NCBI RefSeq assembly: GCF_004339015.1
Contig: NZ_SMFQ01000003.1
Location: 868,001-932,000 of the forward strand
Source: Cocleimonas flava
GTDB lineage: Bacteria > Pseudomonadota > Gammaproteobacteria > Thiotrichales > Thiotrichaceae
Reading direction: 5' to 3'
DNA: 64,000 nt
Shown here in pieces: positions 7,523 through 62,827 of the stretch; position 1 is the first letter of the stretch, and each line of letters begins with the position of its first letter. The notes under the pieces are model-generated. The model was not told the DNA's origin, made no database searches, and saw only the letters and a list, made by a program, of their open reading frames with translations. A program made the translations under genes and the position numbers.

Positions 7523-7553
7523 GTCACCCCCCCACTTTGGACGTGTTTTTTTA
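7523..7553 (+). repeat. Dispersed C-tract motif, copy 1
   Basis: A copy of the motif CACCCCCC(T)ACTT-n-GGCACTTTTTT that recurs across the window. This one is diverged in the second half (GGACGTGTTTTTT). It lies in the divergent intergenic region between tssB and the FNR-like gene. Confidence 0.8.
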
Positions 7554-7629
7554 TAAAGCCTTCAAATAAGGTGAAAATTATTGATGCAATGAAAAGACTA
7601 AAAAGATACCTTTTAAAAAATGAGGCGTT

Positions 7630-8370
7630 ATGACAAAAACACACGAATACATAAAATGTGTCGATGTAACTAGGGAAGGAATCGCTGATTGCCAGCATTG
7701 CGCGATTCGCAAGTATGACTTTTTGGCTAACATTGAAGTCGGTAAATATGAGCAATTACTAAAACGAATTGTGCAATTTTGCTACCCTAAGAAATCTGTT
7801 TTGTTTCTCGAAAACTCACCTGCAGATGCCATGTATGTGGTACGTAAAGGCATGATCAAACTAGAAGAAACATTAAGTGATGGTAACCCGCGAATTGTTA
7901 GAATCATTAAACGCGGTGGAGTGGCAGGTTTAGAAACCTTTCTGGATAGTGGTCAACGTTTTGATCAAACCGCAATAACATTGCAAGATACTGAAATCTG
8001 CCGTATCCCCTATGACGTGGTGGAAACACTTCTAAAATCAGAGCCTGATTTCTATAAATCTGTTTTAAAAGAATGGCACCAGCAAATAGAAGCAAGTAAT
8101 CGAGTCATTGTAGAATTCTCAACGGGATCACTCAAACAACGACTTGCTTGTGTATTATTAATGCTAATTGAAGAAGCTAACCATAACCTTAATGTAGAAC
8201 TAGATATGGTTCATATTGATGATATGGCTGCTTTAACAGGTGTAACGAGAGAATCTGTCAGTCGGATACTTTCAGAGTTTAAACGAAAAAAAATACTGAT
8301 CAAAAGTGGACCTGGCAAAATGCGTTTTGATGAGAAATCAATACAGGAATTTGCCAAGCCCATTTCATAA
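7630..8370 (+). CDS. FNR/CRP-family transcriptional regulator
   Basis: This 246-residue protein has a cyclic-nucleotide-binding-like beta-barrel (about residues 45-150), a long dimerisation helix and a C-terminal winged helix (DDMAALTGVTRESVSRILSE near residue 198), as in CRP/FNR regulators. Cysteines at 10, 21 and 24 (C21-x2-C24) plus C124 resemble the Fe-S ligands of FNR (C20, C23, C29, C122 in E. coli), but the equivalent of C29 is absent. Oxygen or nitric oxide sensing is therefore possible but not established. It is divergent from the T6SS genes and could regulate them. The start is supported by a GAGG ribosome binding site. It converges with the crotonase gene only 17 bp downstream. Confidence 0.88.
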   Translation: MTKTHEYIKCVDVTREGIADCQHCAIRKYDFLANIEVGKYEQLLKRIVQFCYPKKSVLFLENSPADAMYVVRKGMIKLEETLSDGNPRIVRIIKRGGVAGLETFLDSGQRFDQTAITLQDTEICRIPYDVVETLLKSEPDFYKSVLKEWHQQIEASNRVIVEFSTGSLKQRLACVLLMLIEEANHNLNVELDMVHIDDMAALTGVTRESVSRILSEFKRKKILIKSGPGKMRFDEKSIQEFAKPIS

Positions 8371-8387
8371 GTGTCGTTGTAAATTAT

Positions 8388-9164
8388 CTATTTATTTTTA
8401 AAATCTGGTTTTCTCTTTTCAATAAACGCATTCATTCCCTCTTTTTGATCGTGCAATGCAAAGGTTGAATAGAATAAATTTCTCTCTGTTTTAACGCCCT
8501 GAGTTAAGGTCGTTTCATAAGCTACATCCACGGCTTCTTTTGCAAGACAAACAACGGGTTGAGAATATGAGGCAATAGTCTCAGCTATTTCTAGCACTTC
8601 TTCCAAAAAGTTTTCGAGTGGCACTATACGAGAAACCAGTCCTGAACGTTCTGCTTCTTCGGCGCCCATCATGCGTCCTGTTAAACACATATCCATTGCT
8701 TTTGATTTACCCACAAGGCGCGTTAAGCGTTGTGTTCCACCTGCTCCCGGAATCGTGCCTATTTTAATTTCAGGTTGTCCGAATTGTGCATTATCAGCGG
8801 CGATAATAAAATCACACATCATCGAAATCTCACAACCACCCCCTAATGCATAACCTGCCACTGCTGCGATGACAGGCTTTCGGCAAGTGGTAATACGTTC
8901 CCAACCATCTGTAATGAATTGTTCTCTATAGATAGCTTCAAAGTCTTTATTTTTAATTTCAGTAAGGTCTGCACCGGCAGAAAACGCTTTATCACTGCCA
9001 GTAATCACAATCGCACCAATTTCAGGATTATTTTCAAAATCATCCAACGCAATGCTTAACTCATCAGCCAACTCCTGACACAAAGCATTGTAATGAGAAG
9101 GACGATCTAGTGTGATTAGACCGACGTTATTCTTTTGTTCACTCTTGATATTATTAAAACTCAT
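8388..9164 (-). CDS. Enoyl-CoA hydratase (crotonase family)
   Basis: This 258-residue crotonase is close in pattern to mitochondrial short-chain enoyl-CoA hydratase. It has the oxyanion-hole segment AFSAGADLTEI near residue 60 and GYALGGGCEISMMCD near 104, and the two catalytic glutamates are present at Glu112 and Glu132 (FGQPEIKIGTIPGAGGTQRL). It hydrates trans-2-enoyl-CoA. Near dmdA, a crotonase could also act like DmdD on methylthioacryloyl-CoA; the sequence alone does not separate the two. It is followed on the same strand by nothing closer than the convergent regulator, and a thioesterase lies 41 bp upstream, so these two probably form an operon. Confidence 0.9.
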   Translation of the reverse strand: MSFNNIKSEQKNNVGLITLDRPSHYNALCQELADELSIALDDFENNPEIGAIVITGSDKAFSAGADLTEIKNKDFEAIYREQFITDGWERITTCRKPVIAAVAGYALGGGCEISMMCDFIIAADNAQFGQPEIKIGTIPGAGGTQRLTRLVGKSKAMDMCLTGRMMGAEEAERSGLVSRIVPLENFLEEVLEIAETIASYSQPVVCLAKEAVDVAYETTLTQGVKTERNLFYSTFALHDQKEGMNAFIEKRKPDFKNK

Positions 9165-9205
9165 TTTGACTCCCTCTAAAATTATTGTATTTTCACTATC
9201 TATAT

Positions 9206-9640
9206 TTATGGATTTATAACCATCATCGAAGCTTGCATTAAGGAAACCAGTTTAGCTTCGTTGTCGACATTTTTGTGCGCATGTACATCGCCACTCGCAA
9301 TCATGATTGTTCGCCCGGGCTTGATGACTTTTCCCTTGGCAATAAAAAAATCGCCAATCGCAGGAGAGGCAAAATTACTCTTAAATTCTATCGTCAACAC
9401 TCTCGCATCTTCTGGCATTAGCGTCATCGCCGCATAACCACACGCGCTATCTACTATGGTTGTGATTACGCCCGCATGAATAAATCCATCTTGCTGACTT
9501 AAACCTTCTTTGAAAGGCAATTTAATCGTGACCTCTCCAGGCTCAATCGTTTCGATGGTTGCACCAATCGTAGACATGATTGTTTGTTTGAGAAAGCTTT
9601 CAGTGACTTTCTGTCTCACTAGATCAAATTCTGCACTCAT
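9206..9640 (-). CDS. PaaI-type hotdog thioesterase
   Basis: A single hotdog-fold domain of the PaaI/YbgC-like acyl-CoA thioesterase type. The central helix segment DGFIHAGVITTIVDSACGYA has the HxG...D pattern (H-A-G and the Asp of TIVDSA). It probably hydrolyses small or aromatic acyl-CoA thioesters. I place the start at 9640 because a clear GGAGAG ribosome binding site precedes that ATG. The open frame extends 12 codons further upstream, to 9676. It lies just upstream of the crotonase on the same strand, suggesting a two-gene unit divergent from metY. Confidence 0.85.
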   Translation of the reverse strand: MSAEFDLVRQKVTESFLKQTIMSTIGATIETIEPGEVTIKLPFKEGLSQQDGFIHAGVITTIVDSACGYAAMTLMPEDARVLTIEFKSNFASPAIGDFFIAKGKVIKPGRTIMIASGDVHAHKNVDNEAKLVSLMQASMMVINP

Positions 9641-9745
9641 CTTCTCTCCTTTTTTCTCATTCCTGAACTGGCTCAAACTTCTCTTTTACATCGATTTATA
9701 ATGTTTAGTCGTTACATTACGATGTCACGATGCCGCATTTAAAAG

Positions 9746-9774
9746 GTCACCCCCCCACTTATAGGCACTTTTTT
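9746..9774 (+). repeat. Dispersed C-tract motif, copy 2
   Basis: A near-consensus copy (GTCACCCCCCCACTTATAGG followed by CACTTTTTT) in the 397-bp divergent region between the thioesterase and metY. Apart from the palindrome at 9880-9895, I see no further element in that region. Confidence 0.85.
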
Positions 9775-9879
9775 CTAATTTTCATAAATATTTAAATAGG
9801 TATAAATAGAAAGCACGATCGTTTAAAACCACTAATTATTGACTGTGTACTTGACTAATAGACATCCTAACCTAGAATT

Positions 9880-9895
9880 ACGTTTACGTAAACGT
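9880..9895. promoter_or_regulatory. 16-bp perfect palindrome, candidate operator upstream of metY operon
   Basis: ACGTTTACGTAAACGT is its own reverse complement. It lies 143 bp upstream of the metY ATG and 240 bp from the divergent thioesterase start. Its form is what dimeric TetR- or MerR-type regulators of acyl-CoA catabolism use. The cognate regulator is not identifiable from this window. Confidence 0.5.
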
Positions 9896-10037
9896 TAACC
9901 ATATAGATAAATCATTCTGGAAATGACGAACTATAATTATCCAAAATATGTGTTTTTAATATAAATAGATGTCGTTTTAATCAGCGGTTAACCATGCTAA
10001 TTTGAACACAATACCTGATCCCTTAGAGTAATTTTTA

Positions 10038-11363
10038 ATGAGTAAATCTTCTTTCTTCGATCCACAAACCATTGCACTTCATACGGGTTATCAACCTGAT
10101 TCAGAACATGGTAGCCGTGCGGTTCCCATATACCAAACAACCAGTTATGCGTTTCAGGATGTATCGCATGGCGCAGCCCTTTTTAATGTAGAACGCGGCG
10201 GCCACATTTATAGTCGTATGACTAATCCAACCGTTGCCGTTTTGGAACAACGTATGGCGGCTCTTGAAGGTGGTGTTGGGTGTGTTTGTACAGCCTCTGG
10301 TATGAGCGCCCTCTTCACCACATTTGCCAGCTTGTGTTCGGCAGGTGATCATATTGTATCCGCGGCGCAAATTTATGGTTCTACTGCCACCTTACTCGGT
10401 CACACTCTCAGACGTTTTGGAATCGAAACAACTTTTGTTGATGTTAATGACCACCAAGGTATTAAGGATGCCATTCAAGAAAACACCAAATTACTCTTTT
10501 GTGAAACAATTGGTAATCCAAGCTTAGACGTAGCTGATATACCAGCACTAGCCAAAATAGGTGAAGAAGCCCATTTACCCCTTGTCGTCGACGCTACCTT
10601 TTCAACTCCTGTATTACAAAACCCTATTTCTCAAGGCGCAAACGTCGTTATACATTCACTAACCAAGTGGATTGGAGGAAGCGGTAACTCAATCGGTGGC
10701 GCTATTGTTGATGGCGGAAATTTTGAATGGGGAGATCCGGATAAAGACAGACAATTCCCAACGGTATGCGAACCCTATACCCCATTCCATGGCATTAATT
10801 TTTACGAAGAGTTTGGTCCTAGTGCCCTATCAATGCGAATTCGTGCTGAATCAATGCGTGACTTCGGATCCACCTTAAGTCCTCAAAATGCTTTCTATTT
10901 ACTTCAAGGGTTAGAAAGCCTGTCGCTACGCATGCCCAAGCATGTTGAAAATGCCGAAAGCCTTGCGCAATGGTTATTGAAGAATGAAGCGGTTGATTGG
11001 GTCAATCACCCAAGTCTGGATAGCCACCCGAATAAAGACTTAGCCAAAGAGCTACTTCCAAATGGTGCTGGTTCAATCCTTAGTTTTGGTGTTAAAGGTG
11101 GTCGACAAGCAGGAGCCGCGTTTATGGATGCACTGCAACTCGCGACCAATTTAGCCAATGTAGGAGATTCGCGTACCTTAGTTCTACATCCTGGATCTAC
11201 CACGCACTCAAGAATGGATGCAGAGGCTATGAAAGCTGCTGGTATCAGCGAAGATCTCATTAGAGTTTCTGTCGGCATTGAATCACTGCGTGATATTAAA
11301 GGTGACTTCTCACGGGGCTTAAAAGCTGCTCAGAAAGTTGCGGCTGTGGCGCAGGGAGAATAA
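10038..11363 (+). CDS. metY: O-acetylhomoserine sulfhydrylase / aminocarboxypropyltransferase (MetY)
   Basis: This 441-residue PLP enzyme of the Cys/Met metabolism family has the MetY-specific start (TIALHTGYQPDSEHGSRAVP, then IYQTTSYAF) and the cofactor lysine Lys210 in VIHSLTKWIGGSGNSIGG. MetY makes homocysteine from O-acetylhomoserine and sulfide, or methionine directly from methanethiol. Beside dmdA the methanethiol reaction is the more interesting reading: it would recapture the thiol released from demethylated DMSP. First gene of a run on the plus strand; the next start is 3 bp after its stop. Length is typical for MetY (about 425-440). Confidence 0.93.
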   Translation: MSKSSFFDPQTIALHTGYQPDSEHGSRAVPIYQTTSYAFQDVSHGAALFNVERGGHIYSRMTNPTVAVLEQRMAALEGGVGCVCTASGMSALFTTFASLCSAGDHIVSAAQIYGSTATLLGHTLRRFGIETTFVDVNDHQGIKDAIQENTKLLFCETIGNPSLDVADIPALAKIGEEAHLPLVVDATFSTPVLQNPISQGANVVIHSLTKWIGGSGNSIGGAIVDGGNFEWGDPDKDRQFPTVCEPYTPFHGINFYEEFGPSALSMRIRAESMRDFGSTLSPQNAFYLLQGLESLSLRMPKHVENAESLAQWLLKNEAVDWVNHPSLDSHPNKDLAKELLPNGAGSILSFGVKGGRQAGAAFMDALQLATNLANVGDSRTLVLHPGSTTHSRMDAEAMKAAGISEDLIRVSVGIESLRDIKGDFSRGLKAAQKVAAVAQGE

Positions 11364-11366
11364 GAG

Positions 11367-12158
11367 ATGAAGCTAACACTTAACAATGAAAATATTTATG
11401 TCGCTACTGGCGGCCAAGAATTCGATAACAGCTTACCTACCGTTGTGTTCCTGCACGGAAGTGGACTAGACCATAGGAGTTGGGCTCTGCAAACTCGTTG
11501 GTTCGCTTTTCACGGCTACAGTGTGATTGCGCCTGATTTTCCGGGGCATAGCCTGTCTAAAGGTAAAGCCTTAGATAGTATCGAAGATATGGCTGATTGG
11601 TTATGGCAGTTACTGGATAAAATGGATGTAAAAGTATGTAGCTTAGTAGGGCATTCTCAAGGTGGCTTAGTGGCACTCGAAGCGGCAGCAACTCATCCAG
11701 ACAGAGTTCGATCAATCAGTTTGATCGGCTGTGCAGCGGCAATCCCAGTCAATGAGCATTTACTGGCAATAGCAGAAAGCGATCAACCAGCGGCAGTCGA
11801 TGCCATGCTAACCTGGGGATTTGGTGAAGCCTATCAATTCGGGCGTTCTCATGTTCCCGGACAGGCTCCAATGGGAATCGGCTGGCAGATCATGTGCAAC
11901 AATCCCTTACATGCTGATTTATCAGCCTGTCAAAAATACAGCAATGGTGAAAATGCGGCACAAAAAATCACTTCACCCGCTCAACTGATTTTAGCTGAGA
12001 ACGATCGGATGACACCGATCAAAATGGGCCGGGGACTAACAGCCCAATTACAGAATGTAAGCTCGCACATTGAGTTAGACAAAGTCGGTCACATGATACC
12101 CATAGAAGCACCCGAGAAATGTTTATCTGAGCTTCAAGCGTTCATTACAAATATTTAG
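11367..12158 (+). CDS. Alpha/beta-fold hydrolase
   Basis: This 263-residue alpha/beta hydrolase has the oxyanion HG motif (VVFLHGSGLDHRSW near residue 27), the nucleophile elbow GHSQGG with Ser97, and the catalytic His242 in VGHMIPIEAPE. An acid partner is probably the Asp in LAENDRM near residue 213. Substrate is unknown; related enzymes act on esters, thioesters or ring-cleavage products. It follows metY by 3 bp, so it is very likely co-transcribed, and precedes the acyl-CoA dehydrogenase/hydratase by 39 bp. Confidence 0.85.
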   Translation: MKLTLNNENIYVATGGQEFDNSLPTVVFLHGSGLDHRSWALQTRWFAFHGYSVIAPDFPGHSLSKGKALDSIEDMADWLWQLLDKMDVKVCSLVGHSQGGLVALEAAATHPDRVRSISLIGCAAAIPVNEHLLAIAESDQPAAVDAMLTWGFGEAYQFGRSHVPGQAPMGIGWQIMCNNPLHADLSACQKYSNGENAAQKITSPAQLILAENDRMTPIKMGRGLTAQLQNVSSHIELDKVGHMIPIEAPEKCLSELQAFITNI

Positions 12159-12197
12159 CCAAATAAAATAGAAAAATAGATAGGAAATAATCAATAC

Positions 12198-14540: not shown

Positions 14541-14549
14541 AGGTATCAA

Positions 14550-18050: not shown

Positions 18051-18095
18051 GCCCCCCTCTACTTTAAAAAAACGCCTGTAAGTAGGGGGGGTGCC
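18051..18095. repeat. Dispersed C-tract motif, copy 3: inverted pair forming a hairpin
   Basis: A partial forward copy (GCCCCCCTCTACTTT) is followed after a run of A by a reverse copy (ACGCCTGTAAGTAGGGGGGG, then TGCC). The two can pair into a stem. It sits between convergent genes (thioesterase and isochorismatase-like), so it may act as a two-way terminator. Confidence 0.75.
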
Positions 18096-18111: not shown

Positions 18112-18657
18112 TTAACTTTCCAGATATTCCTTGGTTGATACTATCTGCGCAAATGGCACGCTTAACGCCGCCATAAAGGCATTTTGTACATCTTTAGCTT
18201 TGACTAACTCGCCATTGAATTCCAAATCTTTGGTGGCGCACGCATCGTGAATCACCTGACATTTAAAACCAAGATCAAACGCAGCACGCGTCGTGGTATC
18301 GATACACATGTGTGTCATCGCACCACAAATAATCACCTCAGTCACCCCCCTACTTTTAAGCACTTTTTCTAGATCGGTGCCTCTGAATGCACTCGGAAAG
18401 TGTTTTACGAATACAGGCTCATCATCGGTTGGCGTAACGTCAGAATGAATTTCACACCCCTCTGTTTCAGGGATGAAGAAAGTAGCTCCTTCGCGGGCAG
18501 CAAGATGTTGAATATGAAACAGTGGTGCATTCTTATTTCGAAAATTCTCTAGCAATGCTTTACAGTTTTCAGACGCAGCAGACATATTAACAAGCTCCAT
18601 CGTGCCACCCGTAAAATAGTCATTTTGTACATCTACAATAATTAAACCCTGCGTCAT
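18112..18657 (-). CDS. Isochorismatase-family cysteine hydrolase
   Basis: This 181-residue protein has the three catalytic residues of the family: Asp9 in LIIVDVQNDYF, Lys85 in PVFVKHFPSAF, and Cys118 in CGAMTHMCIDTT, with the cis-peptide segment before the Cys. Members hydrolyse amides or vinyl ethers (nicotinamidase, N-carbamoyl compounds, isochorismate); the substrate here is not predictable. A copy of the dispersed C-tract motif lies inside the gene and encodes residues 97-107 (EKVLKSRGVTE), a surface loop whose spacing agrees with the family, so the gene looks intact. It is divergent from the hydratase at 18858. Confidence 0.88.
   Translation of the reverse strand: MTQGLIIVDVQNDYFTGGTMELVNMSAASENCKALLENFRNKNAPLFHIQHLAAREGATFFIPETEGCEIHSDVTPTDDEPVFVKHFPSAFRGTDLEKVLKSRGVTEVIICGAMTHMCIDTTTRAAFDLGFKCQVIHDACATKDLEFNGELVKAKDVQNAFMAALSVPFAQIVSTKEYLES
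18341..18369 (+). repeat. Dispersed C-tract motif, copy 4 (inside a gene)
   Basis: GTCACCCCCCTACTTTTAAG followed by CACTTTTTC is within two or three bases of the consensus. It lies wholly within the isochorismatase-like gene without disturbing the frame. Confidence 0.85.
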
Positions 18658-18780: not shown

Positions 18781-18810
18781 GTCACCCCCCTACTTTAAAG
18801 CACATTTTTG
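18781..18810 (+). repeat. Dispersed C-tract motif, copy 5
   Basis: GTCACCCCCCTACTTTAAAG followed by CACATTTTTG, upstream of the hydratase gene in a divergent intergenic region. Confidence 0.85.
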
Positions 18811-26320: not shown

Positions 26321-26350
26321 ACACCCCCCGGCTTTGGGGTACTTTTTTTA
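26321..26350 (+). repeat. Dispersed C-tract motif, copy 6 (degenerate)
   Basis: ACACCCCCCGGCTTTGGGGT followed by ACTTTTTTT: both ends match, the middle is altered. It lies between two plus-strand genes. Confidence 0.65.
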
Positions 26351-29819: not shown

Positions 29820-29848
29820 GTCACCCCCCCACTTATAGAGGCTTTTTT
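29820..29848 (+). repeat. Dispersed C-tract motif, copy 7
   Basis: GTCACCCCCCCACTTATAGA followed by GGCTTTTTT, 246 bp before the attI-like sequence. The bases after it (a GTTTAGGCAAAAAT-like stretch) are shared with copy 15, which has the same position before the second attI-like site. Confidence 0.85.
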
Positions 29849-31056: not shown

Positions 31057-31085
31057 GACACCCCCCTACTTTTCGGCACTTTTTA
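31057..31085 (+). repeat. Dispersed C-tract motif, copy 8
   Basis: ACACCCCCCTACTTTTCGGC followed by ACTTTTTA, between attC site 1 and the next cassette gene. Confidence 0.85.
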
Positions 31086-31555: not shown

Positions 31556-31573
31556 GTCTGCGACGCTAAATAG

Positions 31574-31601
31574 AAAAAGTGGCTAAAAGTACGGGGGTGT
31601 C
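31574..31601 (-). repeat. Dispersed C-tract motif, copy 9 (reverse)
   Basis: AAAAAGTGGCTAAAAGTACG followed by GGGGTGTC: reverse orientation, interrupted by one base (ACGGGGG). Its G-rich end lies 6 bp from the ATG at 31608 and could stand in for a ribosome binding site. Confidence 0.75.
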
Positions 31602-31607: not shown

Positions 31608-31997
31608 ATGAAAGCAATATTCATTTCTACTGAAGGTGAATATCTTCAAGCTAAAATTGAAGTAAATGGACAGCCTTACTATGTAATGGATGAGTTTAGT
31701 TCTGAAAATTCAAAAAATGGAGAAATTGTAAACTTAGACATATTCTCAGGGCTAGAAGATGAATCGGAGGAATGGGAAAGCATATTCAACGGTAACCCTG
31801 ACGAACTAAAAAAACTTCAACATCAGTCAGGTTGGAAGTATCGAGCATACGGAAAAATCATTTCAATAAAGCCTGTCATTGTAGACATTGGTTTATTTGA
31901 AACTGAAGCACCTTTTCAAATCCAATCTAATGATATTAAGGTTATTGGTAGTTATATAGCATTTACTATTCAACGTTTAGGCGCTTCAATTGTATAA
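31608..31997 (+). CDS. Cassette-borne protein of unknown function
   Basis: This 129-residue soluble, acidic protein has an internal WESIFNGNPDELKK segment near residue 59 and a beta-rich C-terminus. No family recognised. The only purine-rich stretch upstream is the GGGGGTG of the motif copy at 31574-31601. Ends a few bases before an attC site, so it forms a complete cassette. Confidence 0.65.
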   Translation: MKAIFISTEGEYLQAKIEVNGQPYYVMDEFSSENSKNGEIVNLDIFSGLEDESEEWESIFNGNPDELKKLQHQSGWKYRAYGKIISIKPVIVDIGLFETEAPFQIQSNDIKVIGSYIAFTIQRLGASIV

Positions 31998-31999
31998 TC

Positions 32000-32071
32000 A
32001 CATAACAAGTTACAGCATTGGAAAAACTACTCGCTGACGCTCGTATTTTTCCACTGTGTAAGGCGTTAAGT
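32000..32071 (+). other. attC recombination site 3
   Basis: Left core ACATAAC, right core GTTAAGT, inner arms GGAAAAA/TTTTTCC. The OLD-family cassette follows. Confidence 0.85.
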
Positions 32072-32105
32072 GTCAATGGGAATTCTGGCACATCATGGAG
32101 GATTT

Positions 32106-33866
32106 ATGTCGCATAAAATTTCTAATGTAGTAATAAAAAACTACAAGTCATCTATTACTACTGAATTAAAACTCTCTAGTTTTACGCCTCTCGTTGGATA
32201 CAATAATGCTGGAAAATCTAACTGTCTGTCAGCAATTCAATGGCTTTTAAAAAAGTCGAGTTTAGCTGAAAAAGACTTTTTTGATGCTTCGCAGCCAATT
32301 GAAGTGATTGCGACTATTGAAGGAATAACACAAACACTCCTTGATGTAATGCCCGCAAGACAAAAAAGCTCAATTGAAAATTACATTCAAAATGAAACCT
32401 TGAAAATAAGGAGAGTGCAAGAAACACCAAGCGCGAAAACTGCTGAGATTAAAATCTCGGTTTGGAATGATTCAGATAATGATTGGGCTGTAAACCCAAC
32501 AGGTTTAGATGCTGCAATTAGCGTACTCCTTCCAGAACCAATTAGAATAGGTGCGATGGAAAATGCAGCTGAAGATGCTTCAAAAGCTAAAACCTCAACG
32601 ACAATTGGGAAATTACTCGGTGAGTTTTTAGCTCCTGTGAAAGCGGCTCATGAAACAGAGTTAAACCAACATCTTGATGAAGTTGGTAGAAGAATATCAT
32701 CAGACGGTGATATGAGATTTTCTGAATTATCTACAATTGATCAAAATGTTAATTCAAAAGTTAATGATTTATTCCCTGGTATGAGTGTTAAATTGCATTT
32801 TGATACACCAACAATAGACGAACTTATTAAAGCTGGTACATTAAAAGTTTTTGAAGGGGTTGGGAGCGGAAGAGACTTTTCTTCATATGGGCATGGTGCA
32901 CAGCGTTCAATTCAAATGGCGTTAGTACAATACTTAGCGGAAGTAAAAAGAAGTAATAACAATTCCAATTCAACTACCTTACTTTTAATTGATGAACCTG
33001 AGTTGTATTTACACCCCTTTGCTATTGAGCAGATTAGAGAAGCATTAGTTGATTTGTCATTAATTGGATATCAAGTTTTAATTACAACTCACTCTGCTCA
33101 AATGATAACCCCTGAATTAGCAGAGAAGACACTGCTAATAAGAAAGAGTGATACTTCAGGCACACATTCAAGACTCAGATTAACAGACGCTATCCAATCT
33201 GTTGTTCCAAATTCAACCCATCAAATGGAGCAAATCTTTAACTTAGCACACTCTAATCAAGTGTTGTTTGCAGAAAATGTAATATTAACAGAGGGTAAAA
33301 CTGAGTTAAGACTACTTCCATTTATATTTAAATCTGTCTCTAATTTAACTATGGGCCAAGAAAAGCATGCGCTTATTGCCCAAAGTGGTGTACACGATAC
33401 TAAAAAGTCATTAGAGATATTAGCTGCAATGGATTTACCTTCTAAAGCAATATGTGATTTAGATTATTGCTTTGTTGGAGCTGTAAGAGATAATTTCCTT
33501 CAAGCAACAGACCAAGATTTATTGGATCTGAAATCATTGTTACCAAATCTAGTGCAATCACACGGTGTTACATTAAATGGTAACGGTTTACCTCAGAAAA
33601 ACAGTACCATAAATGCAGCAGGTGCCTTTGAAGTTTTAGCCAGCCAAGCCGCTGCTATACCTTTAATAGAATCTTTACATGAAAAGATGAAAGCTCAGAA
33701 TATTTGGATCTGGAAAAAAGGTGCTATTGAAGCGCATATCGGTATAACTAGCAAAAATGAGATCGCTTGGGCTAAATTCAAGAATGATGTAATAACTGAC
33801 GGGTTATCTCAAACATGTAATGATCACCAAGGCTTATTAGACTTGGTAGATTGGTTACGAAATTGA
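32106..33866 (+). CDS. OLD-family ATP-dependent nuclease, cassette-borne
   Basis: This 586-residue protein has an ABC-type ATPase domain with Walker A (VGYNNAGKSN near residue 30) and Walker B LLLIDEPELYLHP (near 293). It is followed by a TOPRIM-like domain with the Glu of VILTEGKTELRLL and an Asp pair in ICDLDYCF. This is the layout of overcoming-lysogenization-defect (OLD) nucleases and the related GajA subunit of Gabija; such proteins often act in phage defence. I place the start at ATG 32106 behind a GGAGG site; an in-frame ATG at 32070 lies within attC and is less likely. No GajB-like helicase is next to it. Confidence 0.87.
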   Translation: MSHKISNVVIKNYKSSITTELKLSSFTPLVGYNNAGKSNCLSAIQWLLKKSSLAEKDFFDASQPIEVIATIEGITQTLLDVMPARQKSSIENYIQNETLKIRRVQETPSAKTAEIKISVWNDSDNDWAVNPTGLDAAISVLLPEPIRIGAMENAAEDASKAKTSTTIGKLLGEFLAPVKAAHETELNQHLDEVGRRISSDGDMRFSELSTIDQNVNSKVNDLFPGMSVKLHFDTPTIDELIKAGTLKVFEGVGSGRDFSSYGHGAQRSIQMALVQYLAEVKRSNNNSNSTTLLLIDEPELYLHPFAIEQIREALVDLSLIGYQVLITTHSAQMITPELAEKTLLIRKSDTSGTHSRLRLTDAIQSVVPNSTHQMEQIFNLAHSNQVLFAENVILTEGKTELRLLPFIFKSVSNLTMGQEKHALIAQSGVHDTKKSLEILAAMDLPSKAICDLDYCFVGAVRDNFLQATDQDLLDLKSLLPNLVQSHGVTLNGNGLPQKNSTINAAGAFEVLASQAAAIPLIESLHEKMKAQNIWIWKKGAIEAHIGITSKNEIAWAKFKNDVITDGLSQTCNDHQGLLDLVDWLRN

Positions 33867-37825: not shown

Positions 37826-37853
37826 GCACCCCCCTACTTTCAGGCACTTTTTT
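37826..37853 (+). repeat. Dispersed C-tract motif, copy 10
   Basis: GCACCCCCCTACTTTCAGGC followed by ACTTTTTT, nearly ideal. Marks the right end of cassette array 1. Confidence 0.88.
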
Positions 37854-41903: not shown

Positions 41904-41934
41904 GTCCCCCCCCCTACTTATAGGCGGTTTTTTT
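41904..41934 (+). repeat. Dispersed C-tract motif, copy 11
   Basis: TCCCCCCCCCTACTTATAGG followed by CGGTTTTTTT. The C-tract is the longest of the set (nine C), which suggests tract-length change. The remainder of 41569-42011 holds only this copy and the Zur box. Confidence 0.8.
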
Positions 41935-42914: not shown

Positions 42915-42943
42915 CCCACCCCCCACCTTTGAGGCACTTTTTT
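42915..42943 (+). repeat. Dispersed C-tract motif, copy 12
   Basis: CCCACCCCCCACCTTTGAGG followed by CACTTTTTT, with one base altered (ACC in place of TAC). Between the GFA gene and the convergent oxygenase. Confidence 0.85.
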
Positions 42944-46976: not shown

Positions 46977-47004
46977 TCACCCCCCACCTTTCAGGCACTT
47001 TTTT
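46977..47004 (+). repeat. Dispersed C-tract motif, copy 13
   Basis: TCACCCCCCACCTTTCAGGC followed by ACTTTTTT. The nearest gene is the IS transposase. Confidence 0.85.
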
Positions 47005-47239: not shown

Positions 47240-48522
47240 CATAGGTAACACTTTAGTCCAGATACATAGGTTACACTTTTATTGATAAATAACAGCCTGA
47301 TCCTACAGCCTTATCTCTGATATCCAATTTTCCTAGCTGATAAAAGTAAAAATAAATTGCATATATTCCATCATCTACTTCTTCTAAACCAACCTGTTCA
47401 CCTTCAAGTAAATGAGTGACATATAGCCGATTATTTTTCCAATGAATAGTCCCATTTTTCTGGACAGTTCTAACTTCATAATAAGGTGGATACTCTGGCG
47501 CACTTATTGTTTCTGGAAACGGTTGTCTTGAGCTCTGATAACACTCTTTAGGTGTTTTAAAGTCTAGCGATTCATGGGGACGCTCTTCATTAAAAGCTTG
47601 TTTAAATATATCAAATCGTTCTTGCTGCAACTTAAATGAATGCTCTGGTGGATGGGTTGCATAGCGTTTTAATGTTCGATGCATACGCTCATGTTTACCA
47701 TTTTGCTGAGGCTTTCCTGGCTCTATTCGTTCAGGATGTATTCCAAGTTTTATCCACCAAGCTGATAACCTAGAAATACCTCCCACAGCTTTTGATGAAA
47801 ATGGCACGCCATTATCGCTTCGGATACGTTCAGGCAATCCATATTTTCTGAATAAATACTCAAAAGACTTTATCGTAGTGCGCGTTCCAACGGTGTTTTG
47901 AGATTCACACCCCAGTAAGTAACGACTAAAATCATCCATTAGCGTTAGTGGATAGCACCACTGCCCATCGAGTAATTTAAACTGACCTTTAAAATCTACC
48001 GACCATAATTCATTGGGGCTCGTAGAGCGTTTAAGCGGTTTTGTATAACGATCGTACCGTCTTCGACGCCTTTGTGGGTGTACTAAACCTTCTGTATGTA
48101 GAATATTATAAATGCTTGATTTTGATGGCGGTTGTTCATTCGGATAGAGCGTTTTAAGTCTTGCCTGAATTTTTTTAGCACCTGGAGTAATAACTGACTG
48201 CATACGTAACTCTATGATTTTTTTGCGAATTGCCAATGGAATACTAGCGGGATGACTTATTGGTTTACGGCTTTTCTCATAGAGTCCGTTTACTCCTTGT
48301 TCCTGATAGCGTTTTATCCACTTGTACCCTGTTTTTCGGCTAATTGAATATCGCTGACAGAGTTGAGTAATTGATAGTGATTTTTCTCGAAGCCAGTCAC
48401 TAATAAAAAGCACTTTTTGATCCATAGGTAACAACTCTTTCCAAGGCATAGGCACCTCCAGTTTTGATGCCTATAGTTTAAGAAACTGTTACCTATGTAC
48501 TTGGACTAATGTGTTACCTATG
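47240..48522 (-). mobile_element. IS481-type insertion sequence
   Basis: Bounded by 36-bp imperfect inverted repeats: CATAGGTAACACTTTAGTCC... at 47240-47275, and the complementary TGTTACCTATGTACTTGGAC... at 48487-48522, with only four mismatches. One transposase gene lies inside. No clear target-site duplication is visible. The insertion lies in non-coding DNA just before cassette array 2. Confidence 0.85.
47271..48449 (-). CDS. IS481-family transposase
   Basis: A DDE transposase of about 392 residues. N-terminal helix-turn-helix (LSITQLCQRYSISRKTGYKW); DDE-type catalytic core with Asp in ELWSVDFKGQF, Asp in RIRSDNGVPF and Glu in FNEERPHESL. Start at the ATG at 48449 behind GGAGG; GTG 48455 is two codons upstream. 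The gene ends inside the left inverted repeat. Full length, so the element may be active. Confidence 0.92.
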   Translation of the reverse strand: MPWKELLPMDQKVLFISDWLREKSLSITQLCQRYSISRKTGYKWIKRYQEQGVNGLYEKSRKPISHPASIPLAIRKKIIELRMQSVITPGAKKIQARLKTLYPNEQPPSKSSIYNILHTEGLVHPQRRRRRYDRYTKPLKRSTSPNELWSVDFKGQFKLLDGQWCYPLTLMDDFSRYLLGCESQNTVGTRTTIKSFEYLFRKYGLPERIRSDNGVPFSSKAVGGISRLSAWWIKLGIHPERIEPGKPQQNGKHERMHRTLKRYATHPPEHSFKLQQERFDIFKQAFNEERPHESLDFKTPKECYQSSRQPFPETISAPEYPPYYEVRTVQKNGTIHWKNNRLYVTHLLEGEQVGLEEVDDGIYAIYFYFYQLGKLDIRDKAVGSGCYLSIKV

Positions 48523-48618: not shown

Positions 48619-48646
48619 GTCACCCCCTACTTATAGAGGTTTTTTC
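48619..48646 (+). repeat. Dispersed C-tract motif, copy 14
   Basis: GTCACCCCCTACTTATAGAG followed by GTTTTTT. It lies 130 bp before the second attI-like sequence, matching copy 7 before the first; the flank (GATTAGGCAAAAAAT) is also shared. Confidence 0.85.
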
Positions 48647-54181: not shown

Positions 54182-54212
54182 AAAAAAGTGCCTGTAAGTA
54201 CGGGGGTGCCTT
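54182..54212 (-). repeat. Dispersed C-tract motif, copy 15 (reverse)
   Basis: AAAAAAGTGCCTGTAAGTAC followed by GGGGGTGCC and a T-run. The C-tract is interrupted (ACGGGGG), as in copy 9. Located between convergent genes at the right end of array 2. Confidence 0.85.
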
Positions 54213-54237
54213 TTTTATTTTTTAATGAGGAATAGAG

Positions 54238-54741: not shown

Positions 54742-55030
54742 TGTTTTTGGTTATCATAAACTTTGGCTAGGGTTTATTTTTATACGTTTAGCTAACCGTT
54801 ATGACTAATTTTACAGGGGTTTTGGTTACTCTATATGAATGTATGCTGTAACACGAATTGGGCTGATTAAAGGTAGTTAGCGTGTGTAAAACTGAAGATA
54901 CGCTTTAAGCAAGCTTTGGGAGAGTAGTAAGAAGAGTAGTAAGATATGCATCTCTGTGTTTATCAGTATCTGTATGGATCTTTTATGATATTGGAACACT
55001 GTGTGAGATTATGAAAAGCTATGTGAAATT

Positions 55031-55285: not shown

Positions 55286-55393
55286 GAGTGCCATCTTTTA
55301 TTCGCATATAATGACCAAAAAAATCTTGAACAAAGAGAGGTTAAGCTAACTACCTTTGTTGCAAGTCTTTACGTAACTAAGTGAATAATATTT

Positions 55394-55837: not shown

Positions 55838-56180
55838 AAACATCCCCTTTCAAAACATTGACTGGAAAAGCCTTCCCCGGACAGAACACGCTGGAACGAC
55901 AGGAGTTGCATATTGGCAGACTATGCAATTTGACGGTTTAAGAGTTAGATATGTAGAGTACTCAGAAAACTATGTTGCTGACCATTGGTGTGAAAAAGGA
56001 CATATCGTTTATTGCTTAAAAGGTGAAGTCATTAACGAATTAAAAGATGGTACTAAATCGGTGCTAACAGAGGGTATGTCTTATATTGTTTCTGATGGAC
56101 TAAGTTCGCATCGGTCAATCACGAAAAAAGGCGTTCATCTTTTAATTATTGATGGTGACTTTCTAAAATTAAAAGAATAA
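55827..56180 (+). CDS. DHCW-type cupin-fold protein
   Basis: This 117-residue small cupin has the family motif ADHWCEKGHIVYCLKGE (Asp-His-Trp-Cys, residues 50-66) and HRSITKKGVHLLIIDGD towards the C-terminus. The family is known by this motif only; function unknown. It overlaps the preceding membrane protein gene by 11 bp. Confidence 0.8.
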   Translation: MNNKNIPFQNIDWKSLPRTEHAGTTGVAYWQTMQFDGLRVRYVEYSENYVADHWCEKGHIVYCLKGEVINELKDGTKSVLTEGMSYIVSDGLSSHRSITKKGVHLLIIDGDFLKLKE

Positions 56181-56221
56181 CAGGTGTTAATATACCCTTT
56201 TAAAATCAGTACACAGCAGTT

Positions 56222-57226: not shown

Positions 57227-57271
57227 TATCTAACTGCAATCAGTCTGCACTTGTGATAACAAAGTAACGAT

Positions 57272-57298
57272 AAAAAGTGCCTATAAGTGGGGGGGTGG
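57272..57298 (-). repeat. Dispersed C-tract motif, copy 16 (reverse)
   Basis: AAAAAGTGCCTATAAGTGGG followed by GGGGTGG, forming an inverted pair with copy 17, 47 bp away. Both lie between nudC and the GNAT gene. Confidence 0.85.
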
Positions 57299-57345
57299 CT
57301 TATTGTAAATACGGCTTTTTCTTATTTGCTTCTTTGAGTTAAATT

Positions 57346-57373
57346 CACACCCCCCTACTTTGAGGCATTTTTT
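57346..57373 (+). repeat. Dispersed C-tract motif, copy 17
   Basis: TCACACCCCCCTACTTTGAG followed by GCATTTTTT. Forward partner of copy 16. Confidence 0.85.
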
Positions 57374-57395
57374 ACAAAAGAGCTGGACGCGTTAA

Positions 57396-57875
57396 TCAAT
57401 TAGAACTTTTGAATATGGAAATACTACTATCAAAATCCGCATAGCCACACTTGATGACCTTGTCGATATACAAGATTGCGCTCGTCAGGCATACACAAAA
57501 TACATTGAAAGAATCGGTAAAGAACCTGCACCTATGATAGCTGATTTCGCCCGTCAAATTGAGCTTGGGCATGTCAGTGTTGCATATAACGAATCATCTT
57601 TTTCTGGGTACGTAGTGTTTTATAAAAAAGAAAACCACCTGCACCTGGAAAATGTAGCAGTCCTACCTTCTCAATCAGGAAAAGGTATAGGAAAAAGACT
57701 GATCAAACACGTCGAGCTTACCGCTCTTAACCATAATATAAAAGCCGTTGAACTCTACACAAACGAAGCAATGACGGAAAACTTATCGATGTATCCTAAG
57801 CTCGGCTATATAGAGTTCGAACGAAAATTTGAAGATGGCTTTTACAGGGCCTTTTTTCGTAAAGATATCAAATAA
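57396..57875 (+). CDS. GNAT-family N-acetyltransferase with unclear start
   Basis: The frame is open from 57396, and from 57429 it reads IKIRIATLDDLVDIQDCARQ, the typical first strand and helix of a GNAT. The acetyl-CoA loop follows (LPSQSGKGIGKRLIKHVE) with a C-terminal YPKLGYIEFERKF motif. Yet no ATG, GTG or TTG occurs in frame before 57534, which would remove the first strand and helix. Either an ATT/ATC start is used, or the start codon is mutated. The upstream ATG at 57414 is in another frame. Family call firm, start uncertain. Confidence 0.75.
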   Translation, partial: SIRTFEYGNTTIKIRIATLDDLVDIQDCARQAYTKYIERIGKEPAPMIADFARQIELGHVSVAYNESSFSGYVVFYKKENHLHLENVAVLPSQSGKGIGKRLIKHVELTALNHNIKAVELYTNEAMTENLSMYPKLGYIEFERKFEDGFYRAFFRKDIK

Positions 57876-57905
57876 TATTTCACCAGCTGATTGAATCAGA
57901 TAACT

Positions 57906-58274
57906 TTAAACCAGCCCTGCTTTCACCATTCGACCTAAATCACAACCTGCAAGAATATGTAAGTGATAATGCAAGACTTCCTGATGGGCGTTTGCACCGA
58001 TATTAGATAGCACTCTGTAACCGTCTTCTTGTAACTTCATTTGAGTGGCGACTGTTTGCACGGCCTGATAGAAACCTGAAATTTCTTCAGCTGGTGCGGT
58101 TGATGAAAAATCGTCAAACGAGATATATTCACCTTTTGGGATTACCAACACATGCACCGGTGCTTGCGGTGAAATATCATTAAACGCGAGTGCGTAATCG
58201 TCTTCGTATACCTTGTCGCAAGGTATTTCACCACGAAGGATTTTTGCGAATATATTTTCTGTGTCGTAACTCAT
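57906..58274 (-). CDS. HIT-family protein (HinT-like)
   Basis: This protein of about 122 residues has the histidine triad HYHLHILAG (His-x-His-x-His) near the C-terminus and NIFAKILRGEIPCDKVYEDD at the start, as in HinT-type nucleoside phosphoramidases. It hydrolyses AMP-linked amides. Start at ATG 58274 behind GGAG; a TTG frame extends four codons upstream. It is on the same strand as the DUF2889 and liu genes. Confidence 0.92.
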   Translation of the reverse strand: MSYDTENIFAKILRGEIPCDKVYEDDYALAFNDISPQAPVHVLVIPKGEYISFDDFSSTAPAEEISGFYQAVQTVATQMKLQEDGYRVLSNIGANAHQEVLHYHLHILAGCDLGRMVKAGLV

Positions 58275-58356
58275 TTTGATCTCCAATTTACATCTTTAAA
58301 GACGGGGTTTAAATGTTGCTTTCAATACTGTTTTCAATAAAAGCACTTCGTGGATT

Positions 58357-58941
58357 CTAGTCTGTTGGCTCGCTCTGTGTCTCGTCATTTTTTTCATAAA
58401 ATTGTGGCCAACGCTTCATAACCACGTCGCCATCTGCTGCCATTGCCAAACACGTGCCGATAATTGCAGGCTTGCCACGATTAGGTTTCTTCCTGGCTTT
58501 CTCTTCTATCTCTGCGTACATCGTTTGATACGCGGTGGTCGCAATGGGTCGTAACAGGTCCATTAAATGGGTGCAGCTGATGTCTGTTCCGATGCGTTGT
58601 TTTGCTTCTCTTACCCAACCCGAGCCAATTCTTAAACCGACCAACGCTTTCATCGCAGAGGTTGCTTTGGGGCATACATTAAAAGGGGTCGCATCAGAAG
58701 CGGCATAGACGTCTTGAATTTCAAACCTTAAATCTAATGTGACTCGTAAATAGATATCATGAACGGGTTCACCTGCTTTGATTAAACCGCCTCGGTGTTC
58801 TTCATCATAACTGCAATCGAATGTACGAATATCCACAAGCCGAGCTTCGATATCGTATAAGCCATCCGCACGTTTAAAGCCTTCACAATGGATATTTCGA
58901 TCGTGTAATTTTTTACGTTCTACGGGATTAGGTAATGGCAT
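58357..58941 (-). CDS. DUF2889-family protein
   Basis: This 194-residue protein has the DUF2889 pattern: CEGFKRADGLYDIEARLVDI near the N-terminus, and RIGSGWVREAKQRIGTDISC followed by THLMDLLRPIATTAYQT near residue 105. Function unknown; the family often lies near degradation genes for CoA-linked compounds. It follows the HMG-CoA lyase gene by 130 bp. GAGGGAG site before the ATG. Confidence 0.88.
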   Translation of the reverse strand: MPLPNPVERKKLHDRNIHCEGFKRADGLYDIEARLVDIRTFDCSYDEEHRGGLIKAGEPVHDIYLRVTLDLRFEIQDVYAASDATPFNVCPKATSAMKALVGLRIGSGWVREAKQRIGTDISCTHLMDLLRPIATTAYQTMYAEIEEKARKKPNRGKPAIIGTCLAMAADGDVVMKRWPQFYEKNDETQSEPTD

Positions 58942-59071
58942 GTTCTCCCTCGATGCTTATCAGATTATTTGTTTGTTATTAGGTTATGTTTTTTAAAGAT
59001 ATATTCATTAAAGATTTGTTTTTAATACGTTTTTATGATTTATATGTTCTGGCATTCAACGGTTTAAGACC

Positions 59072-59968
59072 TTAAACGTACCGAGCTAAACCAACATTTG
59101 AATTCGGTTTACGCCCTAATTGATCGGAGATAAAGCGCCCTGCTTCGAGTAATTTATCCAGATCAACACCGGTTTCAATCCCCATACCGTTGAGCATATA
59201 GATCACGTCTTCGGTGGCGACATTGCCAGTAGCACCTTTTGCATACGGACAACCACCCAAACCTGATACCGAGCTATCGATGGTCGAGACGCCAAGCTGA
59301 AGCACCGCAAACAGGTTTGCCAAAGCCTGACCATAAGTATCGTGAAAATGTGCTGCCAGTTGTGGCATCGGTATATGCTTAGCGACCGTTTCAATCATCT
59401 GCTTAGCTTTTATCGGTGTGCCTGTGCCAATAGTGTCGCCCAGTGAAATTTCATAACAACCCAGATCACTTAAACGTTTGGATACTTCCGCAACCTTTTC
59501 TGATGCGATTTCACCTTCATAAGGACAACCTAAAGTACAAGAAACATAGCCACGTACTTTGAGGTCATTTTCTAGTGCTTTTTCAATGACTTCGGTATAA
59601 CGGTTAATGCTTTCTTCAATGCTACAGTTGATATTTTTCTGCGTGAAAGATTCAGATGCAGCAGCGAATACGGCAATTTCTTTAACGCCAGATTCAAGTG
59701 CGCTTTCTAAACCTCTGATATTAGGAACAAGTCCCGGATAATTTACATTGGCTTTTTGTTTGATGCCTTTGAAGACGTCAACACTGCCAGCCATTTGCGG
59801 CACCCATTTCGGCGAAACAAAACTCGCAGCTTCAACCACGGGTAAACCGGCATCGGCTAATTTTTCGATGAGGCTGATTTTAACGTCGACAGAAACGGGC
59901 GTTGATTCGTTTTGCAAACCATCACGCGCACCGACTTCGACAATTTTTACTTTGCTAGGTAGTGACAT
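59072..59968 (-). CDS. liuE: Hydroxymethylglutaryl-CoA lyase
   Basis: This 298-residue TIM-barrel enzyme has the HMGL signatures: [15 protein letters not shown] near residue 12 (Asp and Arg of the active site), [11 protein letters not shown] near 195, [16 protein letters not shown] with metal-binding His near 230, and [20 protein letters not shown] near 262 with the catalytic Cys. It splits HMG-CoA into acetyl-CoA and acetoacetate, the last step of leucine degradation. Last of the liu genes on the minus strand, 24 bp after liuD. Confidence 0.96.
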
Positions 59969-59992
59969 TATTTTTACCTTATCGATACCTTG

Positions 59993-62029
59993 TTAATCTG
60001 CGGCCTTATCATCAAGGCTCAATAGCTCATCGCCGTCTTCGACCTGATCACCCACACCGAAGTAGATCTCTTTTACTGTTCCGTCTTTGGGTGCAAGAAT
60101 GCTGTGTTCCATCTTCATCGCTTCAACGACTACCAGAGAATCACCTTCTTTGACTTCATCACCAACTTTTACTTCAACGGCGACAACAGCACCTGGCATT
60201 GGTGCGACTAAACCACCTGCCTGACCTTCATTCTCCATCGCATCCATACGCGGATCATGCACAGTAATAATCCATACACGACCTTCAAATAATATGCTAA
60301 TTTGTTGATTTTTCTTGACAAATACAGCACTCAGTTTACGGCCATCGATTTCAGCGGTTAACAGATTGTCATTTTGCATCGTACCTGAAATCATTACATG
60401 TTGACCGCCCTGATCTTGGTCAGCATTTAATTCGAGCTCGTAACCCTGCCCACGATAATGCGCGATAATTCGAGATGGGTTTCCATTAAACTCTAAATCG
60501 ACTGAATTAAAGTTATCTTGATTAAGTTGCCAGCCATCACCGATCCCCCAAGGAGAAAAAGGATCAGCAGTGGCTGACTGAACAACTTTGGCTTTAGCCT
60601 TGGTTTGCAATAATTCATACAAACAGGTTAGCGCCATTACCTCGCTTGGAGGTGAATTCTTTTTAGCGTCTTTATCGTTAAATAAATCCGCTTCGTTCTT
60701 TTCTATAAAGCCTGTATCCAGATCTGCCTTGGCAAAAGCAGGCGCTGAAAACAGTTTTGAAAGAAACTCTAAATTGGTACTTAAACCGAGTATTTGATAA
60801 TCCAGTAATGCGGATTTCATTTGGCGTAAGGCACTGTCTCGGTCTTTGTCCCAAACGATTAGCTTGGCAATCATCGGATCATAGTAAACGCTGACTTCAT
60901 CACCTTGTTGTACACCCGTGTCTACGCGTATATGTGCGTTAGCATCGGGTGTTTTTAAGTATTCCAATGTGCCTGTCGCAGGTAAGAAATCATTCTCTGG
61001 TGATTCTGCATAGATACGTGCTTCGAACGCATGGCCATTAATTTTCAATTCTGCCTGAGTTAACGGAAGCGGCTCGCCGGATGCGACCAGGAACTGCCAT
61101 TCAACTAAATCCTGACCTGAAATCATTTCGCTGATTGGGTGTTCTACTTGCAGACGGGTATTCATTTCCATGAAGAAGAAACTGCCGTCCGTATCGAGCA
61201 AGAACTCAACCGTCCCTGCACCGACATAGTTTATTGCTTTGGCAGAATCAATTGCAGCTTTACCCATCGCTGCACGTAACTCTTCTGTCATTCCCGGTGC
61301 GGGTGCTTCTTCGATGACTTTTTGATGGCGTCGTTGAATCGAGCAATCACGTTCGAACACATGCACTGCATTACCGTGGGTATCGGCGAATATCTGTAAT
61401 TCCACATGACGTGGTGCAGTTAGATAGCGTTCGATTAATACCTTGTCATCACCAAAAGACGCTTTCGATTCGCGCTTACAGGAAGTCAAAGCCGCTTCAA
61501 ACTCATCACTGCTTGTAACGACACGCATGCCTTTACCACCGCCACCTGCGGTTGCTTTGATGAGCTGTGGAAAACCTACACCATCTGATTCTTTTTTCAG
61601 TGTTTCCAGACTTTGATCATCGCCATGGTAACCGGGTACTAATGGCACACCCGCTTCTGTCATGACTATTTTGGCTTCACTTTTGGAACCCATAGAAATA
61701 ATCGCAGATTCAGGTGGGCCGATAAATACGATTCCCGCATCTTTGCAGGCTTTGGAGAAGCTTGCATTTTCAGACATAAAGCCATAACCGGGATGCACAG
61801 CCTGAGCACCTGATTTTTTTGCAACTTCAAGAATCTTATCTGCCTGTAAATAACTATCAACTGCTGGTGCTGGACCAATTAGATAGGCTTCATCACACGC
61901 TTTAACGTGCATCGCATTAGCATCAGCCTCGGAGTATACGGCGACTGTAGCGATTCCCATTCTTCGTGCAGTACGGGCAATTCGACAAGCGATCTCACCA
62001 CGATTGGCTATTAATATTTTATCAAACAT
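59993..62029 (-). CDS. liuD: Methylcrotonyl-CoA carboxylase, biotin-containing subunit
   Basis: This 678-residue protein has biotin carboxylase (about 1-445; ATP-grasp KATAGGGGKGMRVV near 158, RDCSIQRRHQKVIEEAPAPG near 228), a linker domain, and a C-terminal biotin carrier with VVEAMKMEHSIL near residue 640 (biotinylated Lys). With liuB it carboxylates 3-methylcrotonyl-CoA. It starts 6 bp after liuC ends. Confidence 0.96.
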   Translation of the reverse strand: MFDKILIANRGEIACRIARTARRMGIATVAVYSEADANAMHVKACDEAYLIGPAPAVDSYLQADKILEVAKKSGAQAVHPGYGFMSENASFSKACKDAGIVFIGPPESAIISMGSKSEAKIVMTEAGVPLVPGYHGDDQSLETLKKESDGVGFPQLIKATAGGGGKGMRVVTSSDEFEAALTSCKRESKASFGDDKVLIERYLTAPRHVELQIFADTHGNAVHVFERDCSIQRRHQKVIEEAPAPGMTEELRAAMGKAAIDSAKAINYVGAGTVEFLLDTDGSFFFMEMNTRLQVEHPISEMISGQDLVEWQFLVASGEPLPLTQAELKINGHAFEARIYAESPENDFLPATGTLEYLKTPDANAHIRVDTGVQQGDEVSVYYDPMIAKLIVWDKDRDSALRQMKSALLDYQILGLSTNLEFLSKLFSAPAFAKADLDTGFIEKNEADLFNDKDAKKNSPPSEVMALTCLYELLQTKAKAKVVQSATADPFSPWGIGDGWQLNQDNFNSVDLEFNGNPSRIIAHYRGQGYELELNADQDQGGQHVMISGTMQNDNLLTAEIDGRKLSAVFVKKNQQISILFEGRVWIITVHDPRMDAMENEGQAGGLVAPMPGAVVAVEVKVGDEVKEGDSLVVVEAMKMEHSILAPKDGTVKEIYFGVGDQVEDGDELLSLDDKAAD

Positions 62030-62035
62030 AAGTTT

Positions 62036-62827
62036 CTAGTCTTTTATCCAGTTAGGCGATCTTTTCTCAAGAAATGCGTTTAGTCCTTCCTTACCCTCTT
62101 CCGAAGCTCGTGCCTTGGTAATTCGTTCTGCAGTGTCTTCTATTAGCTCATCGGTTGTTGGTCGTGAAGTAACGGCAAATATTAAGTCTTTTGCTGCAGT
62201 TAAAGCACACCCCCCACCTTTGAGCAGGTTTTTTGTGATGTCTTCGATTGCAGTATCGAGTTCACTCTCTTCTACTACGTCATGTAAAAGATTCACGCGT
62301 AGTGCTTCTTCTGCATTAAAGCGTTCTGCGGTTAAAAAATATCTGCGTGATGGGCGCTCACCCATGGCTCTAACTACATAGGGTGAAATTACCGCAGGCA
62401 TTAAACCCAGACGAACCTCAGATAAACAAAATAGCGCTTTAGTCGAGCCTATCGCGATATCACAACACGCGACTAATCCAACACCGCCACCAAAAGCAGC
62501 ACCTTGTACTCTGGCAATGGTTGGGATATTTAATGTATTCAGTTTTTTCATTAAAGCGGCTAATTCCATCGCATCCGCTTTATTCTCAGCTTCGGTGTAA
62601 TCCGCCATACGGCGCATCCAACGTAAATCTGCCCCTGCTGAGAAACTCTTTCCTTCAGATTGTAAAATCAGTACACGCGCTTCAGAATCATTTTCGACGC
62701 TGTCTAGCGCTTCGATGAGTTCTGCAATCAACACATCATCAAACGCATTGTGAATTTCAGAACGATTGATGCTTAAGGTAACAACACCTCGAGCATCTTT
62801 ATTTAGTGTAAGTGAGCTATTAGACAT
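62036..62827 (-). CDS. liuC: Methylglutaconyl-CoA hydratase
   Basis: A 263-residue crotonase. Position and sequence (QGAAFGGGVGLVACCDIAIG near residue 108, LSEVRLGLMPAVISPYVV near 135) fit the LiuC subgroup, which lacks the first catalytic Glu (Gly at that position) and keeps the second (Glu137). It hydrates 3-methylglutaconyl-CoA to HMG-CoA. A copy of the dispersed C-tract motif lies inside the gene and encodes residues 199-208 (KNLLKGGGCA), without altering length or frame. Between liuB (25 bp) and liuD (6 bp). Confidence 0.94.
   Translation of the reverse strand: MSNSSLTLNKDARGVVTLSINRSEIHNAFDDVLIAELIEALDSVENDSEARVLILQSEGKSFSAGADLRWMRRMADYTEAENKADAMELAALMKKLNTLNIPTIARVQGAAFGGGVGLVACCDIAIGSTKALFCLSEVRLGLMPAVISPYVVRAMGERPSRRYFLTAERFNAEEALRVNLLHDVVEESELDTAIEDITKNLLKGGGCALTAAKDLIFAVTSRPTTDELIEDTAERITKARASEEGKEGLNAFLEKRSPNWIKD
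62205..62235 (+). repeat. Dispersed C-tract motif, copy 18 (inside liuC)
   Basis: GCACACCCCCCACCTTTGAG followed by CAGGTTTTTTG. Within liuC, in frame and with family-like spacing. Confidence 0.8.

Follow-up and report, generated by a model that had tools for sequence, protein, structure and literature searches.

Uptake words have been described in the Pasteurellaceae and Neisseriaceae (PMC7811141, PMC13020248, PMC12616744). In Haemophilus, the core of the uptake signal sequence (USS) is essential for uptake, and its A/T tracts make the DNA more rigid and bend it slightly (PMC7811141). The DNA uptake sequence (DUS) of the Neisseriaceae exists in eight dialects that have a three-base core in common (PMC3630211). 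Both USS and DUS occur partly as inverted pairs, lie in many terminators and can double as terminators (PMC13020248), and within genes one orientation dominates (PMC2346458). Minor pilins of the FimT/GspH type are the class of known or predicted uptake receptors (PMC12616744, PMC4906244). Here we describe a 27 bp word repeated along 64,000 nucleotides of Cocleimonas flava, family Thiotrichaceae (contig C2, positions 868001-932000; hereafter the window), and across its 4.49 Mb genome of 10 contigs (G000). From its likeness to the USS and DUS, we put at about even the chance that the repeats are a genus-specific self-recognition word for natural DNA uptake, similar in kind to these two and unrelated in sequence. 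That such self-DNA uptake words have evolved independently a third time, here in the Thiotrichaceae and in at least five or six species dialects with a G6-tract core and helically phased A-tracts, falls slightly short of an even chance in our judgement.

Anatomy and abundance of the word

Read on the C-rich strand, the word follows the plan A/T, CACCCCCC, 2 nt, CTT, 3 nt, G, 4 nt, T6. Counted from the first C of CACCCCCC as position 0, the 5′ side has A/T at -5 to -3, a frequent G at -2 and CACCCCCC at 0-7. TA, CA or AC stands at 8-9, CTT at 10-12 and a three-base block (ATA, TGG, TGA, ACA, and others) at 13-15. The 3′ side has G at 16, a mostly G/C block (GCAC, GCG, GGC, GCC, and others) at 17-20 and T at 21-26. 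The T-run ends at a constant distance, longer T-runs accompanying shorter tails. GGCAC makes up 50 of the 171 tails parsed in G000, and the part that does not vary is GGGGGGTG, read on the complementary strand. We did not find conservation outside the 27 bp core and a few 5′ bases, and no test for dependence between bases of the 5′ flank and bases of the tail exceeded z 4.

A position weight matrix (PWM) trained on 154 copies, all from outside the window, finds 18 clear copies within it (scores 8.4-48.5), 14 on the plus and four on the minus strand, and one degenerate half-copy. The top score among 30 shuffles of the window, which served as the null, is -1.4, below every one of the 18 copies. 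CACCCCCC alone occurs 14 times in the window vs. 0.43 expected. A preliminary description of the window had counted 18 locations and 19 units with the same 14:4 split, and the matrix recovers these numbers, the extra unit being the half-copy at 18051-18066 that is paired with the copy at 18066-18092. The literal consensus given there, with one free base before GGCAC, returned 0 matches even with 3 mismatches, because the true spacing reads CTT-NNN-G and the word has several alternative tails besides GGCAC. Once the inner spacing is corrected, the pattern has hundreds of matches.

The word is found genome-wide. The pattern CACCCCCC-NN-CTT-NNN-G-N1-4-TTTTT has 452 exact matches on the plus and 264 on the minus strand of G000 (716) and 258 and 383, respectively, in the sister species G007; the reversed control has 0. 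A looser pattern (CACCCCCCN2-20TTTTTT) has 847 matches in the genome and its reversed control 6. Some copies that suit two gap lengths are counted twice in these exact matches. About a quarter of G000 was examined base by base, and the 258 well-scoring copies in 1.02 Mb of sampled sequence extrapolate to ~1,100 genome-wide. The spread is even, with 2-9 copies in each of 39 unmasked 20 kb stretches and a dispersion of 0.70 (variance below the mean); in one further stretch (C1:360001-380000, L096) 16 kb are masked as N.

Conservation and dialects

Over ~173 kb aligned between G000 and the sister species G007, a counterpart is present at 30 of 30 copies and a clean gap at none. Identity is 98.4% at the fixed positions, 86.5% at the variable positions and 88.3% in the flanks, figures that come from copies ascertained in one genome through those fixed positions and from 65 aligned sides, many of which are one site viewed from both genomes. 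The T positions, only loosely required in ascertainment, are likewise nearly invariant. Several copies persist although their flanks are merely 60-66% alike. Even where the gaps that separate collinear blocks change fast, the two genomes have most copies in common; their orientation almost always agrees, and a few have been gained or lost. Such evolutionary behavior is that of a selected site and not of an active transposon.

The variable blocks of orthologous copies in the two species at times differ as units (e.g., window 46978-47004 and L123/L060). AC-CTT-TCA stands against TA-CTT-ATA in one G007 stretch, and in one inverted pair both arms have changed in parallel, GCCAC/GTGGC vs. GGCAC/GTGCC. 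Such block-wise and parallel arm changes suggest copy-to-copy conversion or template switching.

The word is written differently in other members of the genus, whose genomes are fragmented assemblies. The plan that these dialects share is a core of C6-7, 2 nt, a T-tract at ~+11 to +15 and a second T-tract at ~+21 to +26, about one helical turn apart. G011 has AAATGA-CACCCCCC-YA-CTTTTT-GANNG-TTTT and G006 has AAAGTA-CACCCCCC-CA-CTTTTT-NGCCN-TTTT-CTCC. The dialect of G010 is CCACCCCCCC-TC-TTTTT-CGATGATTTGTA, that of G009 is ACCCATCCCCCC-CT-TTTTTT-nATAC-TTTTT and that of G002 is ACCCATCCCCCC-TG-TTTTTT-ATATATTTTT. No such word was found in the stretches read of G001, G004 and G005, which belong to the same genus. 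The Cocleimonas word is not enriched in seven other sampled genera of the family (0-4 matches per genome, the level of chance), each of 369 genomes of the class has 0-2 matches to the general dialect pattern, and the exact strict pattern has no match in the viral contigs. Our literature search, partial in its coverage, returned nothing on the sequence or on repeats in the Thiotrichaceae, and an earlier description is possible. Two dialect-like copies (CACCCCCCCACTTTTTTGGCGG, CACCCCCCTACTTTTTGGCACTTTT) lie 1.8 kb apart in a genome of another family (G256:C7:103840-105642; L240:1490-1530). They adjoin an open reading frame that by eye resembles a shortened integron-type integrase, and are possibly cassettes gained from a Cocleimonas-like donor.

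A possible role in uptake and competing explanations

A selected word of double-stranded DNA that is independent of transcription and evenly spaced, that has dialects, and that joins a G/C core to phased A/T tracts has the look of an uptake word. A type IV (minor) pilin would recognize the G/C core, which is GGGGGGTG on the other strand, in its double-stranded form, and the A/T tracts, spaced by roughly one helical turn, would give a bent shape that eases passage of the DNA through the secretin. Word-bearing DNA would be pulled in and recombined, so that the word would accumulate and be maintained at a density of about one per 4 kb, chiefly at sites where it is harmless to genes. Both the recognition of the word by the uptake apparatus and any consequence for transformation are our inference. 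ComEC and DprA are each encoded in 11/12 genomes, among them both G000 and G007, and GspH/FimT in 12/12. Two GspH/FimT-type pilins at G000:C1:567669-574321 are, by their class, candidate receptors.

The word shares with the USS of the Pasteurellaceae (AAGTGCGGT and two A/T tracts) its abundance across the genome, A/T tracts placed after a G/C core, variants specific to subclades, the presence of competence genes, and inverted pairs; all 12 of the 12 pairs less than 100 bp apart are inverted. Both also have an orientation bias within genes, where the C-strand of the Cocleimonas word is antisense in 17 copies and sense in three. It differs from the USS in its unrelated core, in being about four times sparser, and in its strand bias and near-exclusion from genes. 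Species dialects over a common core and inverted pairs are shared with the DUS (GCCGTCTGAA). The DUS, whose receptor is ComP, differs in sequence, in length (10-12 bp vs. 27 bp) and in the class of Proteobacteria that carries it. An uptake word was one of four candidates in the preliminary description and is now the best supported of them, while miniature repeats and terminators are disfavored. The reason offered then, a resemblance to the Haemophilus USS, has to be given up. The AAAAAGTGC likeness falls in the variable tail, the other dialects lack it, and we regard the similarity of AAGTGC to the USS core as coincidence.

Several observations weigh against uptake. About 90% of the copies (185/205) are intergenic, far above the USS; these positions come from a home-made gene caller and are approximate, with ~80% of the DNA coding. 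The C-strand lies on the locally C-rich strand for 144/205 copies (~70:30). The USS and DUS reportedly lack a general orientation bias (PMC2346458), which is a tendency among known members and not a strict criterion. Copy density is ~0.25 per kb vs. roughly 1 per kb in Haemophilus (PMC7811141). The competence genes do not discriminate, because they are widespread and also present in the word-less G001, G004 and G005. The uptake reading is weakest on two points, the strand preference and the scarcity of copies in genes. Homopolymer runs within genes may carry a cost, and one strand may be favored by the base skew of the genome.

The strand preference (144 vs. 61 copies by local GC skew) and the long one-strand stretches would also suit a binding site for a genus-specific cytoplasmic protein that organizes or marks the chromosome, e.g., a nucleoid-associated, segregation or recombination-hotspot protein, the G-rich strand of the site lying preferentially on the leading strand. 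The even spread and the purifying selection on fixed positions agree with such a site, and the phased A/T tracts fit a DNA-bending protein. We nevertheless think this explanation rather unlikely. The strand share per stretch does not track how large the skew is (Spearman -0.12, p 0.46), so the word is not a strict leading-strand word, and the copies are not concentrated in any sampled part of the chromosome (dnaA lies at C1:969 kb on the minus strand). We reject a strict replication-strand word on the grounds of a bias of only ~70% with no tight relation to skew; the strand bias is a regional preference. Species dialects would also be unusual for a housekeeping site. The Chi and FtsK-orienting polar sequence (KOPS) words are about 8 bp long and lie mostly inside genes. 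They share the preference for a G-rich strand and a similar density with the Cocleimonas word, which differs in being 27 bp long and intergenic, with phased T-tracts and a strand preference of only ~70%.

A transcription terminator or 3′-end RNA element would account for the T-run at one end and for the excess of convergent gaps, which hold 56/185 intergenic copies (30%) and make up 91/513 gaps (18%). The inverted pair that was tested folds strongly (z -2.9), and only there is a stable hairpin found. The single copies lack a stable hairpin right before the T-run, and their folding is no stronger than that of shuffles (z -0.4 to +1.3 in seven folds of five copies); we reject a terminator for them. 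Orientation ignores transcription (46 copies along it and 55 against it in tandem gaps), 28 copies sit in divergent gaps, and no Rfam match reaches the gathering score within the window. A terminator role for the word as a whole is thus improbable. A promoter or operator role is rejected, as copies occur in convergent and divergent gaps in both directions.

Remnants of a miniature mobile element inserted preferentially between genes, be it a repetitive extragenic palindrome with its associated tyrosine transposase (REP/RAYT), a miniature inverted-repeat transposable element (MITE) or an IS200/IS605-like element, are very improbable: the high copy number, intergenic position, strand preference and combinatorial variable blocks would fit, and hundreds of short intergenic copies are typical of REP/RAYT, but none of the aligned copies is a clean insertion or deletion relative to G007, no insertion polymorphism was seen, the fixed positions evolve more slowly than the flanks, single copies lack the stem-loop, conservation stops at the core and its few 5′ bases, and no Y1 transposase was found in five carriers of the word (G000, G006, G011, G003, G008), grounds on which we reject REP/RAYT and MITEs.

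Copies along the window and significance of the word

The preliminary description held that the copies carry no gene, which is right for the 16/18 that are intergenic and wrong for two that lie antisense within real genes. These two are 18343-18369 (+, PWM 32.8), in an isochorismatase-family gene (18112-18657, minus strand; PF00857), and 62208-62234 (+, PWM 30.6), in an enoyl-CoA hydratase-family gene (62036-62827, minus strand; PF00378). Three copies lie in divergent intergenic regions. The first, 7525-7551 (+, PWM 30.9), has an orthologous copy in G007 despite flanks only 60% alike. The second, 9748-9774 (+, PWM 46.6), is identical at the orthologous G007 site, and as a single copy folds no better than shuffles. 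The third is 18783-18809 (+, PWM 37.1). Convergent regions hold 37827-37853 (+, PWM 48.5), the highest score in the window, and 54182-54208 (-, PWM 41.6). Tandem regions hold 26322-26348 (+, PWM 26.9), 29822-29848 (+, PWM 40.4) and 31059-31085 (+, PWM 37.9).

Two inverted pairs are present. At convergent gene ends, the degenerate arm 18051-18066 (+, GCCCCCCTCTACTTT) and the copy at 18066-18092 (-, PWM 24.0) fold into a 14-16 bp stem (z -2.9); the latter copy has one extra C and is kept in G007 with 6 C. The other pair consists of 57271-57297 (-, PWM 45.9) on the left and 57348-57374 (+, PWM 44.2) on the right. The remaining copies vary in the core or middle. The copy at 31573-31599 (-, PWM 34.1) has a CCCCCG core and lies just upstream of 31608-31997, and that at 41907-41933 (+, PWM 34.6) has a CCCCCCCC core. 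The ACCTT form is found at 42917-42943 (+, PWM 46.6) and, between two minus-strand genes, at 46978-47004 (+, PWM 39.0), which has an orthologous copy in G007. The weak copy at 48620-48646 (+), with a TCACCCCC core, scores 8.4, yet this is above the shuffle maximum of -1.4. The motif is sparse from 47 to 57 kb, with one weak and one good copy before 57.27 kb. A gene for an IS481-type transposase (rve/LZ_Tnp_IS481) lies at 47271-48455. An OLD-family-like ATPase/TOPRIM protein (AAA_15 and OLD-like TOPRIM), possibly a phage-defense gene, is encoded at 32070-33866.

If the uptake reading is false, the repeats would still be an undescribed, selected, genus-wide intergenic word in need of a reader protein. 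If it is true, the genus would provide a third case of uptake words, in free-living marine sulfur oxidizers and with genus-wide dialects, and the trait would evolve repeatedly outside host-associated bacteria. The Cocleimonas word would then offer a fresh comparison for why uptake words exist and which pilin reads them.

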